Source of the DNA: a virus
Virus record (IMG/VR): IMGVR_UViG_3300030116_004577
Span: 1 to 34,674 of that record
Length of the DNA: 34,674 nt
Strand: one strand, 5' to 3'
Below are positions 29,467 through 33,891 of this stretch, piece by piece. The stretch's first letter is position 1, and each line of letters starts with the position of its first letter. A program made the translations under genes and the position numbers. The notes beneath the pieces were generated by a model, which saw only the letters and a list, made by a program, of their open reading frames with translations, searched no databases and had not been told where the DNA came from.

Positions 29467-30543
29467 CTATTCTGTTTCGTTTTCTAGAACTAATATATAA
29501 GCTAGTTTATTTAGAAGTATTTTTTCTTTTATAAATAAAGCTTCTTGATCTTTATCATACACTTGTTTATTTGTTGTAGATATAAACTCATTTAAGGCAA
29601 AATCCTCTTCACCATAAATTAAAGAAAACAAGTTTTCAATTTTCATATCTTCTAAATCTTGAGTAATGACAAAAAGCTTAGAACCTCTCTTCATCATTAC
29701 ACCTAAGTCAATAATCATCTGTCTTTGAAAACTAGCTGGATCTAGATCTTCTGGATCATCTAAGAAGTCAAGCATATTTAAAATAACAATATCTGCTTCT
29801 GTAAGTTCTTTAGGCAACTTACCAACAGACAGATCTTGAGGCATAACCTTGTTAGTTCCTCTTTCTGGTATCAAATCAAAACTTGTAACTTCATAACCTA
29901 GCTCTGTTCCTAAATCATATGTGACTTGGTACTTGTCTGTAAGATCTACAATTTTACTTTCATTTCCATCTGTAAACCAATAAAGTAAATTAGCTATCAT
30001 TTGCGGTGGTGTTTTGAATGGAACATCTAAACCATACTTTTCATCTGGTTTACCAAAAGACCAAACATTAGAAGTTTTTAAATTTACACCAGCTTTTTCT
30101 ACTAAGTTAAAACTTTCATTATCAAAATTTAATTCTTTTATTTTATTTTTCTTGACTGTTGCTCTTAAATCTCTTACAGAATAATTATTGTCATAGGCTT
30201 CTTTTAACAAAGAGTCTATCTTTTTATCATCTTCTAAATATGCAACTTCGTGATGATGTGTCCAGGACAATTCTGGAACTCTTCTTTCTAAAGGTATCTT
30301 GTTGGCAACATAAGCTGCATTACTAAATGTAGAATATGGTATTCCAAAGTCTAAGGCCTGAGAGGCTAGTTCCCCATACTTACGATCTCCATAGTTCCAC
30401 CAATCACCAAGCCACCACATAATATGTTTTGCTTGATTTGTTAAAGCTTCACCGATTTCAACCCACTCTTCGTATTCAAGATCATCTCTCAAATCCAAAC
30501 TAATAGATTGTACTTTTGATAATTCTATCTCTCCCATATCCAT
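29467..30543 (-). CDS. HTH protein with degenerate DNA-methyltransferase-like domain
   Basis: The 358-residue product has two parts. Residues about 20-125 (EEWVEIGEALTNQAKHIMWW, LGDWWNYGDRKYGELASQAL, PELSWTHHHEVAYLE) match a helix-turn-helix domain found in phage ParB-like and methylase proteins, usually reading 'W..G..L........W..GDW...GE..YG', then 'LS..HH..VA.L'. Residues about 160-300 line up with N4/N6 DNA methylases (VWSFGKPDEKYGLDVPFKTP, then PQMIANLLYWFTDG). However, the SAM-binding DPFAGSGTT is replaced by IVDLTDKYQVTYDLG and the catalytic DPPY by NMLDF. It is therefore probably catalytically dead and acts as a DNA-binding or packaging-associated protein. It lies directly upstream of terL, has no Shine-Dalgarno site, and may be leaderless behind TATAGT. 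Confidence 0.7.
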   Translation of the reverse strand: MDMGEIELSKVQSISLDLRDDLEYEEWVEIGEALTNQAKHIMWWLGDWWNYGDRKYGELASQALDFGIPYSTFSNAAYVANKIPLERRVPELSWTHHHEVAYLEDDKKIDSLLKEAYDNNYSVRDLRATVKKNKIKELNFDNESFNLVEKAGVNLKTSNVWSFGKPDEKYGLDVPFKTPPQMIANLLYWFTDGNESKIVDLTDKYQVTYDLGTELGYEVTSFDLIPERGTNKVMPQDLSVGKLPKELTEADIVILNMLDFLDDPEDLDPASFQRQMIIDLGVMMKRGSKLFVITQDLEDMKIENLFSLIYGEEDFALNEFISTTNKQVYDKDQEALFIKEKILLNKLAYILVLENETE

Positions 30544-30626: not shown

Positions 30627-30947
30627 TTATCGTATATGCTTTTCGAAAGTCTTTCTTATGTTTGGTTCATTAATTTGTGAACGCACTTCAGAAACTGGTT
30701 GACCATTTCTATAAGCTATAAAAGTTGGCACAGAATATATGCTATATGTAGTAGCTATATTAGTTGCCTGATCTACATCTAATGAAACAAACTCGACTTC
30801 TTTATCAGACCACTCATCTGAGATTTTTTCTACTGATGGCATAATCGCTTTGCATGGACCACACCAATCAGCTTCAAACTTGACTATTGTTGTAATGTCT
30901 CGATTGATTGCCTCCGAAAACTCATTTTGTTGAATTTGTCTAATCAT
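30627..30947 (-). CDS. trx: Thioredoxin
   Basis: The 106-residue product is a complete thioredoxin. It has the redox-active WCGPC at 28-32 after IVKFEAD, a cis-proline SVPTFIAYRNG at about 73-83, and the usual EFVSLDVDQ strand. It would be a cytoplasmic disulfide reductase, kept reduced by host thioredoxin reductase. In phages it may support ribonucleotide reductase or DNA polymerase processivity, or remodel host redox state, which could matter to the phage's WhiB iron-sulfur protein; the link is speculative. It stands alone between a divergent plus-strand pair and its own terminator. No Shine-Dalgarno site precedes the ATG. Confidence 0.95.
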   Translation of the reverse strand: MIRQIQQNEFSEAINRDITTIVKFEADWCGPCKAIMPSVEKISDEWSDKEVEFVSLDVDQATNIATTYSIYSVPTFIAYRNGQPVSEVRSQINEPNIRKTFEKHIR

Positions 30948-32065: not shown

Positions 32066-32126
32066 TCTCTAGTCTACTCTACTCTATTCTAGTCTTATCT
32101 ACTCTACTCTTCTCTACTCTACTCTA
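32066..32126. repeat. Pentamer repeat tract (TCTAC/GTAGA) in the trio's leader
   Basis: About 60 bases consist of imperfect TCTAC and TCTAT units on the plus strand, i.e. GTAGA repeats in the minus-strand transcript, giving a purine-rich leader just upstream of the AAAGGAG ribosome site of the 65-aa gene. The tract starts and ends at CTAGAG-type sequence. Confidence 0.8.
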
Positions 32127-32130
32127 GGGC

Positions 32131-32158
32131 GTGACAGTCACAAATGTCACATGTGACA
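32131..32158. promoter_or_regulatory. Operator-like palindrome cluster
   Basis: TGTCACATGTGACA (32145-32158) is a perfect 14-bp palindrome. Immediately before it GTGACAGTCAC forms a second inverted repeat (32131-32141) around the same GTCAC half-site. Three GTCAC-type half-sites in 28 bases suggest cooperative binding by a dimeric regulator upstream of the small gene trio. No clear promoter hexamers could be placed with it. Confidence 0.55.
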
Positions 32159-32227: not shown

Positions 32228-33709
32228 TCATTTGGATATCCGCATTTTGTTAAAATTTTCAACAATTTCATCATTAAAAACAAGTTTATCTTCTATTAAT
32301 GATCTAATAATTAACCTACCGACAAGCTCCATAAACTGTGGTACAACTGCATTTCCAAGTGCTTTTAGTCGATCAATATCATTATCTTGTCTTATTCTTA
32401 CTCTAGATATACCATCTTCCCATTGATTATCTACACCCCAAGAATTAGATAGGCCTAATTCAGCCACCCATCTGGGAAGCCCATAAGTCTGTTTACCCAT
32501 TCTGGATTCAGCCTTTGACCAATCAACTCTGGATTCCGTTCCCCAACATCCATTTCCAGAGTAGATCCGTGAGATCCACTCGCTGCCGATGGTGCTTTCT
32601 TGTTCACTGGTTTTGTTGCTTGACTTGCTCTTGGGGTTGACCAACTCTCTTTCGCAGATGACCACTCTATCACTTCCACTGTCGTCAGCTCCTTGTCGTA
32701 TTTTATTTCCGTCAAGTGAGGTTTGATCTTGCTCCAATCCTCCAGGCTCGGATAACTGAAACCTTTGTCGTCCCTCCTGAACCAATGATCCACTGTTGAC
32801 TTCTTTATCTTCGTTAATTTTGCTAGCTCTGTTGCTGTTGTCTGGCTTCTCAGATATGTCACCCAATCCTGTTGATCTGGTAGTAGAGGTCTGTTTACCA
32901 TTTCGTGATCTTGATAAAATCTCATCAGTGTCGGATCCTCCTCTATCATTTCCATCCACACTTGATCTGATAAAGTCCTCTGTACTCTCTGACCTGAACT
33001 CCTTATTGTTTTCCCCTGCATTAGTTTTGTTGCGTGTTTCAGTGAGTCGTCCTTCTTGTCCATCGTTGTCGGTGTTAACCATAGTTTTGGATTTTCTCTC
33101 AAGTTGCCAGTACTTTTTCTTTTGCTCTTCTTCTCTGGATCTCCACGATACAAGGCTCTCTCCAAAGCTTCGCCTGATCTCGGTTCTAAGTAGTCCATAG
33201 TGTTTGGAGTCTCCCACGATTCCAACTCCCACCCATCTTTGTCTTTTGTGCCTTGCTCCAATGAATTTTGCTGATATAAGTTGCCACTCGAATCTATAAT
33301 ACCGCATTTCGGCCACACCTTTGAGGACACGGTTAATGGCTTCTCCGTTGCTTGCTCTGAGGATGTTTGGGACATTTTCCAGGACGAAGATTGGTGGTCG
33401 TATTTCATTAATAAATCTTTCGACTTCATCCCATAACCATCTTTCATCTAAAACTCCTTTCTGGTTTCCAGCAACACTTACTGGCTGACAAGGAAACCCT
33501 GCTGTGATGATATCTACCTTTGGTAAATATTTAGTGCTTATGTTTTCTACTTTTTTATTTAATACTAAAGAATTAGGAAATCTTTTCTCTATGATTTGTG
33601 TACAGAATTCATCCGTGTCAATTTGCCAGGCAACATCTGTGACCAGGCCTGATTTCATAAGGCCTAACTCTATACCACCAATACCTGAAAACATACTTCC
33701 AAGTTTCAA
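32228..33709 (-). CDS. C5-cytosine DNA methyltransferase
   Basis: The 493-residue product methylates cytosine at carbon 5 in a DNA target, probably protecting phage DNA from host restriction. Motif I is FSGIGG (7-12), motif IV GFPCQP with catalytic Cys74 (71-76), motif VI ENVPN (111-115), motif VIII near GARHKRQRWVGV (151-162) and motif IX/X RLKALGNAVVPQ (447-458). Between about 165 and 390 lies an unusual Ser/Asn/Asp/Gly/Arg-rich linker without recognisable fold, where a target recognition domain is expected. Codons 88-418 also encode a second protein in the +1 frame (32455-33447). The ATG overlaps the upstream gene's stop (ATGA). A promoter lies 33898-33926, upstream of the 61-aa gene. No partner endonuclease is visible, so it looks like an orphan methylase. 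Confidence 0.95.
   Translation of the reverse strand: MKLGSMFSGIGGIELGLMKSGLVTDVAWQIDTDEFCTQIIEKRFPNSLVLNKKVENISTKYLPKVDIITAGFPCQPVSVAGNQKGVLDERWLWDEVERFINEIRPPIFVLENVPNILRASNGEAINRVLKGVAEMRYYRFEWQLISAKFIGARHKRQRWVGVGIVGDSKHYGLLRTEIRRSFGESLVSWRSREEEQKKKYWQLERKSKTMVNTDNDGQEGRLTETRNKTNAGENNKEFRSESTEDFIRSSVDGNDRGGSDTDEILSRSRNGKQTSTTRSTGLGDISEKPDNSNRASKINEDKEVNSGSLVQEGRQRFQLSEPGGLEQDQTSLDGNKIRQGADDSGSDRVVICERELVNPKSKSSNKTSEQESTIGSEWISRIYSGNGCWGTESRVDWSKAESRMGKQTYGLPRWVAELGLSNSWGVDNQWEDGISRVRIRQDNDIDRLKALGNAVVPQFMELVGRLIIRSLIEDKLVFNDEIVENFNKMRISK
32455..33447 (-). CDS. Overprinted gene nested in the methyltransferase (+1 frame, 330 aa)
   Basis: This 330-codon frame lies wholly inside the C5 methyltransferase gene, one base downstream in frame. 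The ATG at 33447 has AAAGGAG six bases upstream, as good as any ribosome site in the window. The protein has WPKCGI near 45, then WETPNTMD at 79, LWLTPTTMDKKDDS at 122 and WSTPRASQATK at 269. These are three repeats of a TP-x-x-x-D/Q type that I recognise from phage methylase-associated proteins, which end in a 'LNPxWVxxLMGFPxGW' motif. Ours ends LNPEWVNRLMGFPDGWLN. Residues about 194-240 (TTATELAKLTKIKKSTVDHW, FRRDDKGFSYPSLEDW) look like a helix-turn-helix. It is probably a partner of the methylase, perhaps supplying target recognition. Function unproven. Confidence 0.8.
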   Translation of the reverse strand: MKDGYGMKSKDLLMKYDHQSSSWKMSQTSSEQATEKPLTVSSKVWPKCGIIDSSGNLYQQNSLEQGTKDKDGWELESWETPNTMDYLEPRSGEALERALYRGDPEKKSKRKSTGNLRENPKLWLTPTTMDKKDDSLKHATKLMQGKTIRSSGQRVQRTLSDQVWMEMIEEDPTLMRFYQDHEMVNRPLLPDQQDWVTYLRSQTTATELAKLTKIKKSTVDHWFRRDDKGFSYPSLEDWSKIKPHLTEIKYDKELTTVEVIEWSSAKESWSTPRASQATKPVNKKAPSAASGSHGSTLEMDVGERNPELIGQRLNPEWVNRLMGFPDGWLN

Positions 33710-33891
33710 TCGTCACCAGCCCAGTTTGGATTTCCTCTATACTCATCAAAAAATCTTTTGTCGTATAAATCAGCCATTGTTAGATATATTTTTTCAGATA
33801 TATCCATTACTGTTATCAAGCCTTTTTTTAACAACCATCTGTAAGGAGCTGTAAATAATTTATTTTCTACTTTTTTGAATTTTTCCCACAT
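33706..33891 (-). CDS. Small basic protein upstream of the methyltransferase (61 aa)
   Basis: The 61-residue product (MWEKFKKVENKLFTAPYRWL, then LKKGLITVMDISEKIYLTMA) has a basic amphipathic first half and a short polar end. It is the first gene after a near-consensus promoter whose -10 box ends six bases before the ATG; there is no ribosome site, so the message is probably leaderless. Its stop overlaps the methyltransferase ATG (ATGA), so it may act as a translational leader for it. No family is recognised. Confidence 0.6.
   Translation of the reverse strand: MWEKFKKVENKLFTAPYRWLLKKGLITVMDISEKIYLTMADLYDKRFFDEYRGNPNWAGDD

Follow-up and report, generated by a model that had tools for sequence, protein, structure and literature searches.

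In C5 DNA methyltransferases (MTases) of the M.HhaI kind, motif IX lies in the small, DNA-recognising domain, and the multispecific enzymes of the Bacillus phages SPR and phi3T carry arrays of short exchangeable recognition domains ahead of this motif. The site of M.EcoHK31I is YGGCCR, and Lee, Kam and Shaw reportedly found in 1995 that the small open reading frame (ORF) of this enzyme is embedded in the large one in a different frame. Long genes that lie completely within another gene are considered uncommon in bacteria and their phages. M.EcoHK31I occurs naturally as two polypeptides: its large chain contains motifs I-VIII and X and, as predicted, the recognition domain, while its small chain contains motif IX; in M.AquI, the small subunit contains motifs IX and X and part of the variable region (PMC3404938). 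An example of an out-of-frame ORF in a phage methylase is the HNH element of ShiLan, for which no ribosome-binding site was detected (PMC11855218).

Here, we analyzed a window (the whole stretch of DNA under study, 34,674 nucleotides) that is a virus record of 34.7 kb (IMGVR_UViG_3300030116_004577) and that encodes a tape measure, major tail and major head proteins, a head protease and a terminase. It contains a C5-MTase ORF (the outer frame, alpha) in which a second ORF (the nested frame, beta) sits entirely, in the +1 frame relative to alpha. A first-pass annotation made from the sequence alone had described the nested ORF as 330 codons that begin with ATG six bases behind AAAGGAG, which we confirmed at 32455-33447(-), and the WPKCG (residues 45-49), the three TP-type repeats (W-x-TP motifs at residues 78-81, 123-126 and 269-272) and the C-terminal LNPEWVNRLMGFPDGW that it had listed are all present in beta. 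The features of the pair are the following:

32228..33709 (-): putative alpha subunit, C5 DNA MTase of 493 aa (PF00145, E=2.3e-44); TTG start, not certain
33674..33700 (-): alpha motif I, FSGIGG, AdoMet site (invariant columns G9-G12 in alignment A3)
33467..33499 (-): alpha motif IV, GFPCQPVSVAG, with the catalytic Cys (invariant G71, P73, C74, Q75, S78, G81)
33454..33460 (-): AAAGGAG, ribosome-binding site of the beta gene, six bases ahead of the ATG
32455..33447 (-): putative beta subunit, nested gene in the +1 frame, ATG start, 330 aa (phrog_1008, E=6e-8)
33371..33379 (-): alpha motif VI, ENV, within the overlap (invariant E111, N112)
33221..33274 (-): alpha motif VIII region, SAKFIGARHKRQRWVGVG, within the overlap (invariant H154, R156, R158)
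33223..33447 (-): beta N-cap, residues 1-75, overprinting motifs VI-VIII; selection on both frames
32390..33196 (-): alpha linker opposite beta, predicted disordered (pLDDT mostly <50; dNN/dSN 2.39)
33082..33216 (-): beta W-x-TP module 1, WETPNTMD..., residues 78-122 (alignment A1)
32644..33081 (-): beta W-x-TP module 2 with a helix-turn-helix (HTH), residues 123-268 (from relatives; 58% identical outer-frame copy)
32698..32874 (-): HTH segment of module 2, residues 192-250 (pLDDT about 80-89; XRE-type fold matches, weak E-values)
32515..32643 (-): beta W-x-TP module 3, WSTPRASQ..., residues 269-311 (alignment A1)
32464..32514 (-): beta motif IX, RLNPEWVNRLMGFPDGW, residues 312-328 (23.1 bits)
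32336..32368 (-): alpha motif X, ALGNAVVPQ, past the stop of the nested ORF (invariant L451, G452, N453, P457)

The first-pass annotation had also proposed that the MTase frame keeps all catalytic motifs, and this part has to be corrected for motif IX. With a motif IX profile derived exclusively from ten phage MTases of the single-chain type, the best score in alpha was -2.5 bits, whereas beta reached 23.1 bits at RLNPEWVNRLMGFPDG (0/2000 shuffles as good), so that the motif IX missing from alpha resides in beta: the motifs are divided between the two proteins. The alignment of alpha with M.HhaI covers residues 12-176 (motifs I-VIII) and, more weakly, a separate stretch at motif X; the M.HhaI small domain, located between motifs VIII and X, had no counterpart in alpha. 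The structure model of alpha was confident at residues 1-170 and for the motif X helix, with a pLDDT below 50 across most of residues 172-440, and its fold matches were M.HhaI and M.HaeIII.

This organization resembles that of M.EcoHK31I, since the motifs are split over two polypeptides with motif IX in the small subunit and since the gene of the small subunit is nested in that of the large one in another frame. The window differs from it by a module array, including an HTH, that is located in the nested beta, and by the predicted disorder of the stretch of alpha from motif VIII to motif X; this difference holds for the window, and some other relatives do have a module in alpha. Because the putative recognition modules are in beta and not in the large subunit, we consider the window as a variant of M.EcoHK31I rather than a plain member of its kind. 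Beta is, we presume, nearly twice as long as the M.EcoHK31I small subunit. As in M.AquI, the motifs are shared by two polypeptides, but motif X of the window is in the outer frame, past the beta stop; an M.AquI-like division combined with a long overlap was found at three other loci (L068, L069 and L239), where the overlapping beta ORF carries motif X as well as motif IX. Unlike in a single-chain C5-MTase, motif IX is absent from the chain that carries motifs I-VIII, and the enzymes of SPR and phi3T differ from the window in being single chains with no known overlap.

To evaluate the nested frame as a gene, we used synonymous-codon shuffles of the outer gene, in which the longest +1 run was 77 +/- 21 codons (maximum 214) and never reached 330 codons (0/5000); the reciprocal synonymous shuffle gave 0/5000 likewise. 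A scan of IMG/VR with the nested protein identified 50 relatives, of which 48 were examined: the nested ORF was always in the same relative frame, the outer frame remained open, and a Shine-Dalgarno-like sequence preceded the beta ATG in all 47 that had upstream sequence. Codon-position variability was then compared over 19 close sequences (18 relatives plus the window). The outer frame varied most at its third codon position outside the overlap (0.39), all codon positions were quiet over motifs VI-VIII, and over the modules the variability shifted to the outer first position, which is the nested third position (0.28-0.39).

The overlapping-gene dN/dS check that the first-pass annotation had suggested was carried out with our own simplified version of a published approach, an overlap-aware count in which pairwise counts are non-independent. 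The nested frame is under purifying selection over the whole overlap (dNN/dNS 0.24, CI 0.20-0.29), and the outer frame is so over motifs VI-VIII (dNN/dSN 0.10); in the beta N-cap region, both frames are under purifying selection (outer 0.10, nested 0.18), while opposite the beta modules the outer frame is not (dNN/dSN 2.39). For comparison, the shadow +1 frame of a control stretch outside the overlap gave 0.67 (0.42-1.13). Within the overlap, motifs VI-VIII are the only part of the outer frame under constraint, the linker being free except for stop avoidance; the relaxed outer linker facing a nested frame under purifying selection fits the earlier idea that the second frame constrains the linker sequence. 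The nested gene is real and evolves as a protein, so that both frames are genes; the nested product is unmeasured. A lack of homologues other than translated shadows, or stops in the nested frame of close relatives, had been named as outcomes that would refute such a gene: homologues were found at the 50 related IMG/VR loci, in cultured phages and in bacterial contigs, and stops were not seen, with both frames open and a conserved ribosome-binding site.

The compositional bias of the alpha linker could nevertheless suggest a nested ORF without coding function, as a shadow of the outer sequence, or else an assembly artefact. The shuffles, the substitutions in the linker that land on nested codon position 3, the purifying selection on the nested frame and the many independent contigs and cultured phage genomes that carry the overlap all argue against it, so that we consider this explanation as refuted and give it practically no weight. 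The ShiLan precedent of an out-of-frame ORF in a phage methylase (PMC11855218) raises another explanation, which is that the nested gene is a similar homing endonuclease hidden in the methylase. Nevertheless, searches of Pfam, PHROGs and NCBIfam gave no match to an HNH domain in the nested protein, its ORF begins over the motif VI region and provides the motif IX missing from alpha, and its ribosome-binding site is conserved when none was detected for ShiLan; we thus find a homing endonuclease hardly conceivable here.

Both frames may also be read into a single polypeptide through ribosomal frameshifting from the outer to the nested and back to the outer frame, and the order obtained if the pieces were joined (motifs I-VIII, modules, motif IX, motif X) would indeed be that of a normal C5-MTase. 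Two shifts would however be required, beta has its own conserved ribosome-binding site and ATG and a conserved N-cap decoded alongside motifs VI-VIII, and some cultured-phage records annotate the two as separate genes, which makes frameshifting very improbable in our opinion. In contrast, we consider it very likely that this DNA segment encodes a C5-MTase made of two subunits, alpha for catalysis and beta for motif IX and the recognition modules.

The W-x-TP modules of beta are exchangeable: among relatives, they are gained, lost and reordered between a near-fixed N-cap and a fixed motif IX (alignment A1), with 0 to 6 W-x-TP-like motifs per beta among the loci listed from the IMG/VR sample. 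A model of beta alone was mostly of low confidence (pTM 0.29) and gave no usable fold assignment outside the HTH; the low confidence is expected if beta folds on alpha, even if it is no proof of it. The exception was the HTH (pLDDT about 80-89 over residues about 191-250), and the best fold matches of the model were dominated by XRE-type HTH proteins, with weak E-values throughout; the HTH-like segment mentioned in the first-pass annotation is thereby backed by the model and by weak fold matches. Searching solved structures with a beta profile gave no match, even at E=10, so that the proposal that the modules are recognition domains rests on their position, their modularity and the HTH homology. 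All 49 of the 49 aligned nested proteins matched PHROG 1008 ("DNA methyltransferase"), indicating that the beta family is already catalogued, under a name that hides that nested members lack catalytic motifs and overlap their catalytic partner.

Considering that the HTH segment resembles XRE-type proteins that include the restriction-modification control proteins C.AhdI and C.BclI (weak E-values), beta could be a regulator of the MTase gene, a repressor similar to C proteins, instead of an enzyme subunit. Such a regulator is difficult to reconcile with relatives in which the HTH is absent (10/48) or in the outer frame (16/48) while the cap and motif IX hardly vary, and with an alpha that lacks motif IX in loci possessing beta, and we judge it improbable. 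As for beta as an enzyme subunit, the most fitting interpretation of the window pair is a split C5-MTase similar to M.EcoHK31I, in which recognition is probably a function of beta. The suggestion of two cooperating proteins with recognition in the nested frame, made in the first-pass annotation, fits a beta that carries motif IX and the modules and an alpha without motif IX or small domain; counting against recognition by beta, the predicted recognition domain of M.EcoHK31I was assigned to the large subunit (PMC3404938).

In our working model, alpha would be translated from the outer frame as a domain for AdoMet binding and catalysis (motifs I, IV, VI and VIII) followed by a long disordered tether and a motif X helix. 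Beta would be translated in the nested +1 frame from its own ribosome-binding site, with a cap at its N-terminus, then one or several exchangeable W-x-TP modules (one with an HTH) and finally motif IX. Alpha may bind beta, which would take the place of the missing small domain, the W-x-TP modules being most likely target-recognition domains and the alpha linker a tether whose sequence would be dictated mainly by beta. Phage MTases generally serve to protect phage DNA from host restriction, and because of this general role we propose that the enzyme probably marks phage DNA against it. The alpha-beta complex, the module-based recognition, the methylation activity and the biological role are inferred, with no expression, complex or methylation data at hand.

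The HTH module was found in the nested frame in 22/48 relatives, in addition to the outer-frame and module-free relatives counted above. Compared with the nested HTH module of the window, the outer-frame module of one relative (L025) shows 58% identity over 164 residues (1e-61) and that of a second one (L043) 47% identity; there, the nested ORF has already ended where the outer-frame module lies. Staphylococcus phage Alsa_4 also has an N4/N6 MTase (PF01555) that contains a homologue of the HTH segment (47% identity over 76 residues), indicating a recognition-type module that is common to C5 and N4/N6 MTases. It is therefore conceivable, at slightly less than even chances in our estimation, that recognition modules are independent of the frame, being found in a nested subunit, in an outer subunit and as an HTH segment in an unrelated N4/N6 MTase, and that a phage can move them from one overlapping gene to the other to change or add specificities. 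If this was the case, the number of W-x-TP modules would set how many sites are methylated; a module in either frame is a rare case of the same domain visible on both sides of an overlap. The Alsa_4 enzyme (L055:1922-3064) holds the HTH segment in its variable region. Motifs can switch sides too, as with motif X at the three loci mentioned above, and at one locus the beta-type motif IX is in the alpha frame: L230:3423-4439 is a single-chain MTase whose own frame includes this motif, with what resembles the remains of a beta N-cap in its +1 frame, possibly a refusion of alpha and beta.

To estimate how common the nested design is, we collected loci from IMG/VR with a motif IV DNA pattern, which favours neither design, and obtained at least 69 scorable loci among the matches listed. 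Motif IX was only in a +1 nested ORF in 50 of these 69 and only in the alpha frame without nested ORF in 12, while 2 scored both and 5 neither (Fisher p = 5e-8 for exclusivity). After reading the exceptions by eye, the nested count was about 55 of the 69 listed and both "both" calls were removed; the count of the script was lower because it missed nested loci with a variant motif IX (L180, L220 and L221, for example) and because RLQG in the alpha linker caused false "both" calls (L204 and L219). With a motif IX pattern, 56 of the 81 IMG/VR sites among the matches listed were in an ORF nested in the +1 frame inside a full outer MTase, 14 further sites were partial with an identical relative frame, and several of the remaining ones were also overlaps by eye, including L081, L089, L093 and L129, which are nested despite being labelled "single" by the script. 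As judged from such sequence patterns, phage C5-MTases in the IMG/VR sample listed appear to be usually built with a nested beta subunit.

Proteins of the nested family were also found in cultured phages of Paenibacillus, Mycobacterium, Gordonia, Salmonella, Escherichia, Lacticaseibacillus, Synechococcus and others. For Harrison and C75C1, the frame was confirmed by reading and the annotation contains the outer gene only, as it does in many other records; in Paenibacillus phage Shelly, gp56 is a "g55 internal gene" and the overlapping pair is annotated as DNA methyltransferases, and Mycobacterium phage Catdawg has two overlapping annotated MTase genes (gp5/gp6). In a scan of bacterial genome contigs, 28/35 sites were full nested cases, on contigs with Bacillota-type, actinobacterial, proteobacterial, Bacteroidetes, spirochaete and other bacterial titles. 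The arrangement has a known precedent in M.EcoHK31I and is common. Considering this precedent and PHROG 1008, neither the kind of enzyme nor the beta family is new as such; the new elements here are the prevalence of the arrangement in phages, the location of modules in the nested subunit and the presence of a module in either frame. A literature search, which did not reach the primary M.EcoHK31I reports of 1995 and 2010, found no description of a nested beta as a general feature of phage MTases, nor of recognition modules in a nested subunit or of one module in either frame. Since the nested subunit is often unannotated, many of the phage MTases recorded as one gene may represent only half of an enzyme, with consequences for annotation, for tests of phage MTases expressed from the outer gene alone and for predictions of anti-restriction specificity.

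Two nested-type MTases are in tandem on a single contig (L133:133-1952), and beta-family sequences without a listed gene were seen on large plasmid replicons of Shinella sp. PSBB067 (H133) and Methylorubrum extorquens AM1 (H136). In the window, the alpha TTG start shares TTGA (33706-33709) with the stop of the upstream ORF 33706-33891, an overlap that suggests translational coupling of alpha with this ORF. The ORF at 29467-30543 (358 aa) adjoins the large terminase gene and had no PHROG match, and that at 30627-30947 is thioredoxin-like (WCGPCK, by eye). Immediately downstream of the alpha gene, the pentanucleotide CTCTA is repeated 12 times (32067-32126), and an inverted repeat, TGTCACATGTGACA, was seen by eye near 32145-32158, after the CTCTA copies.
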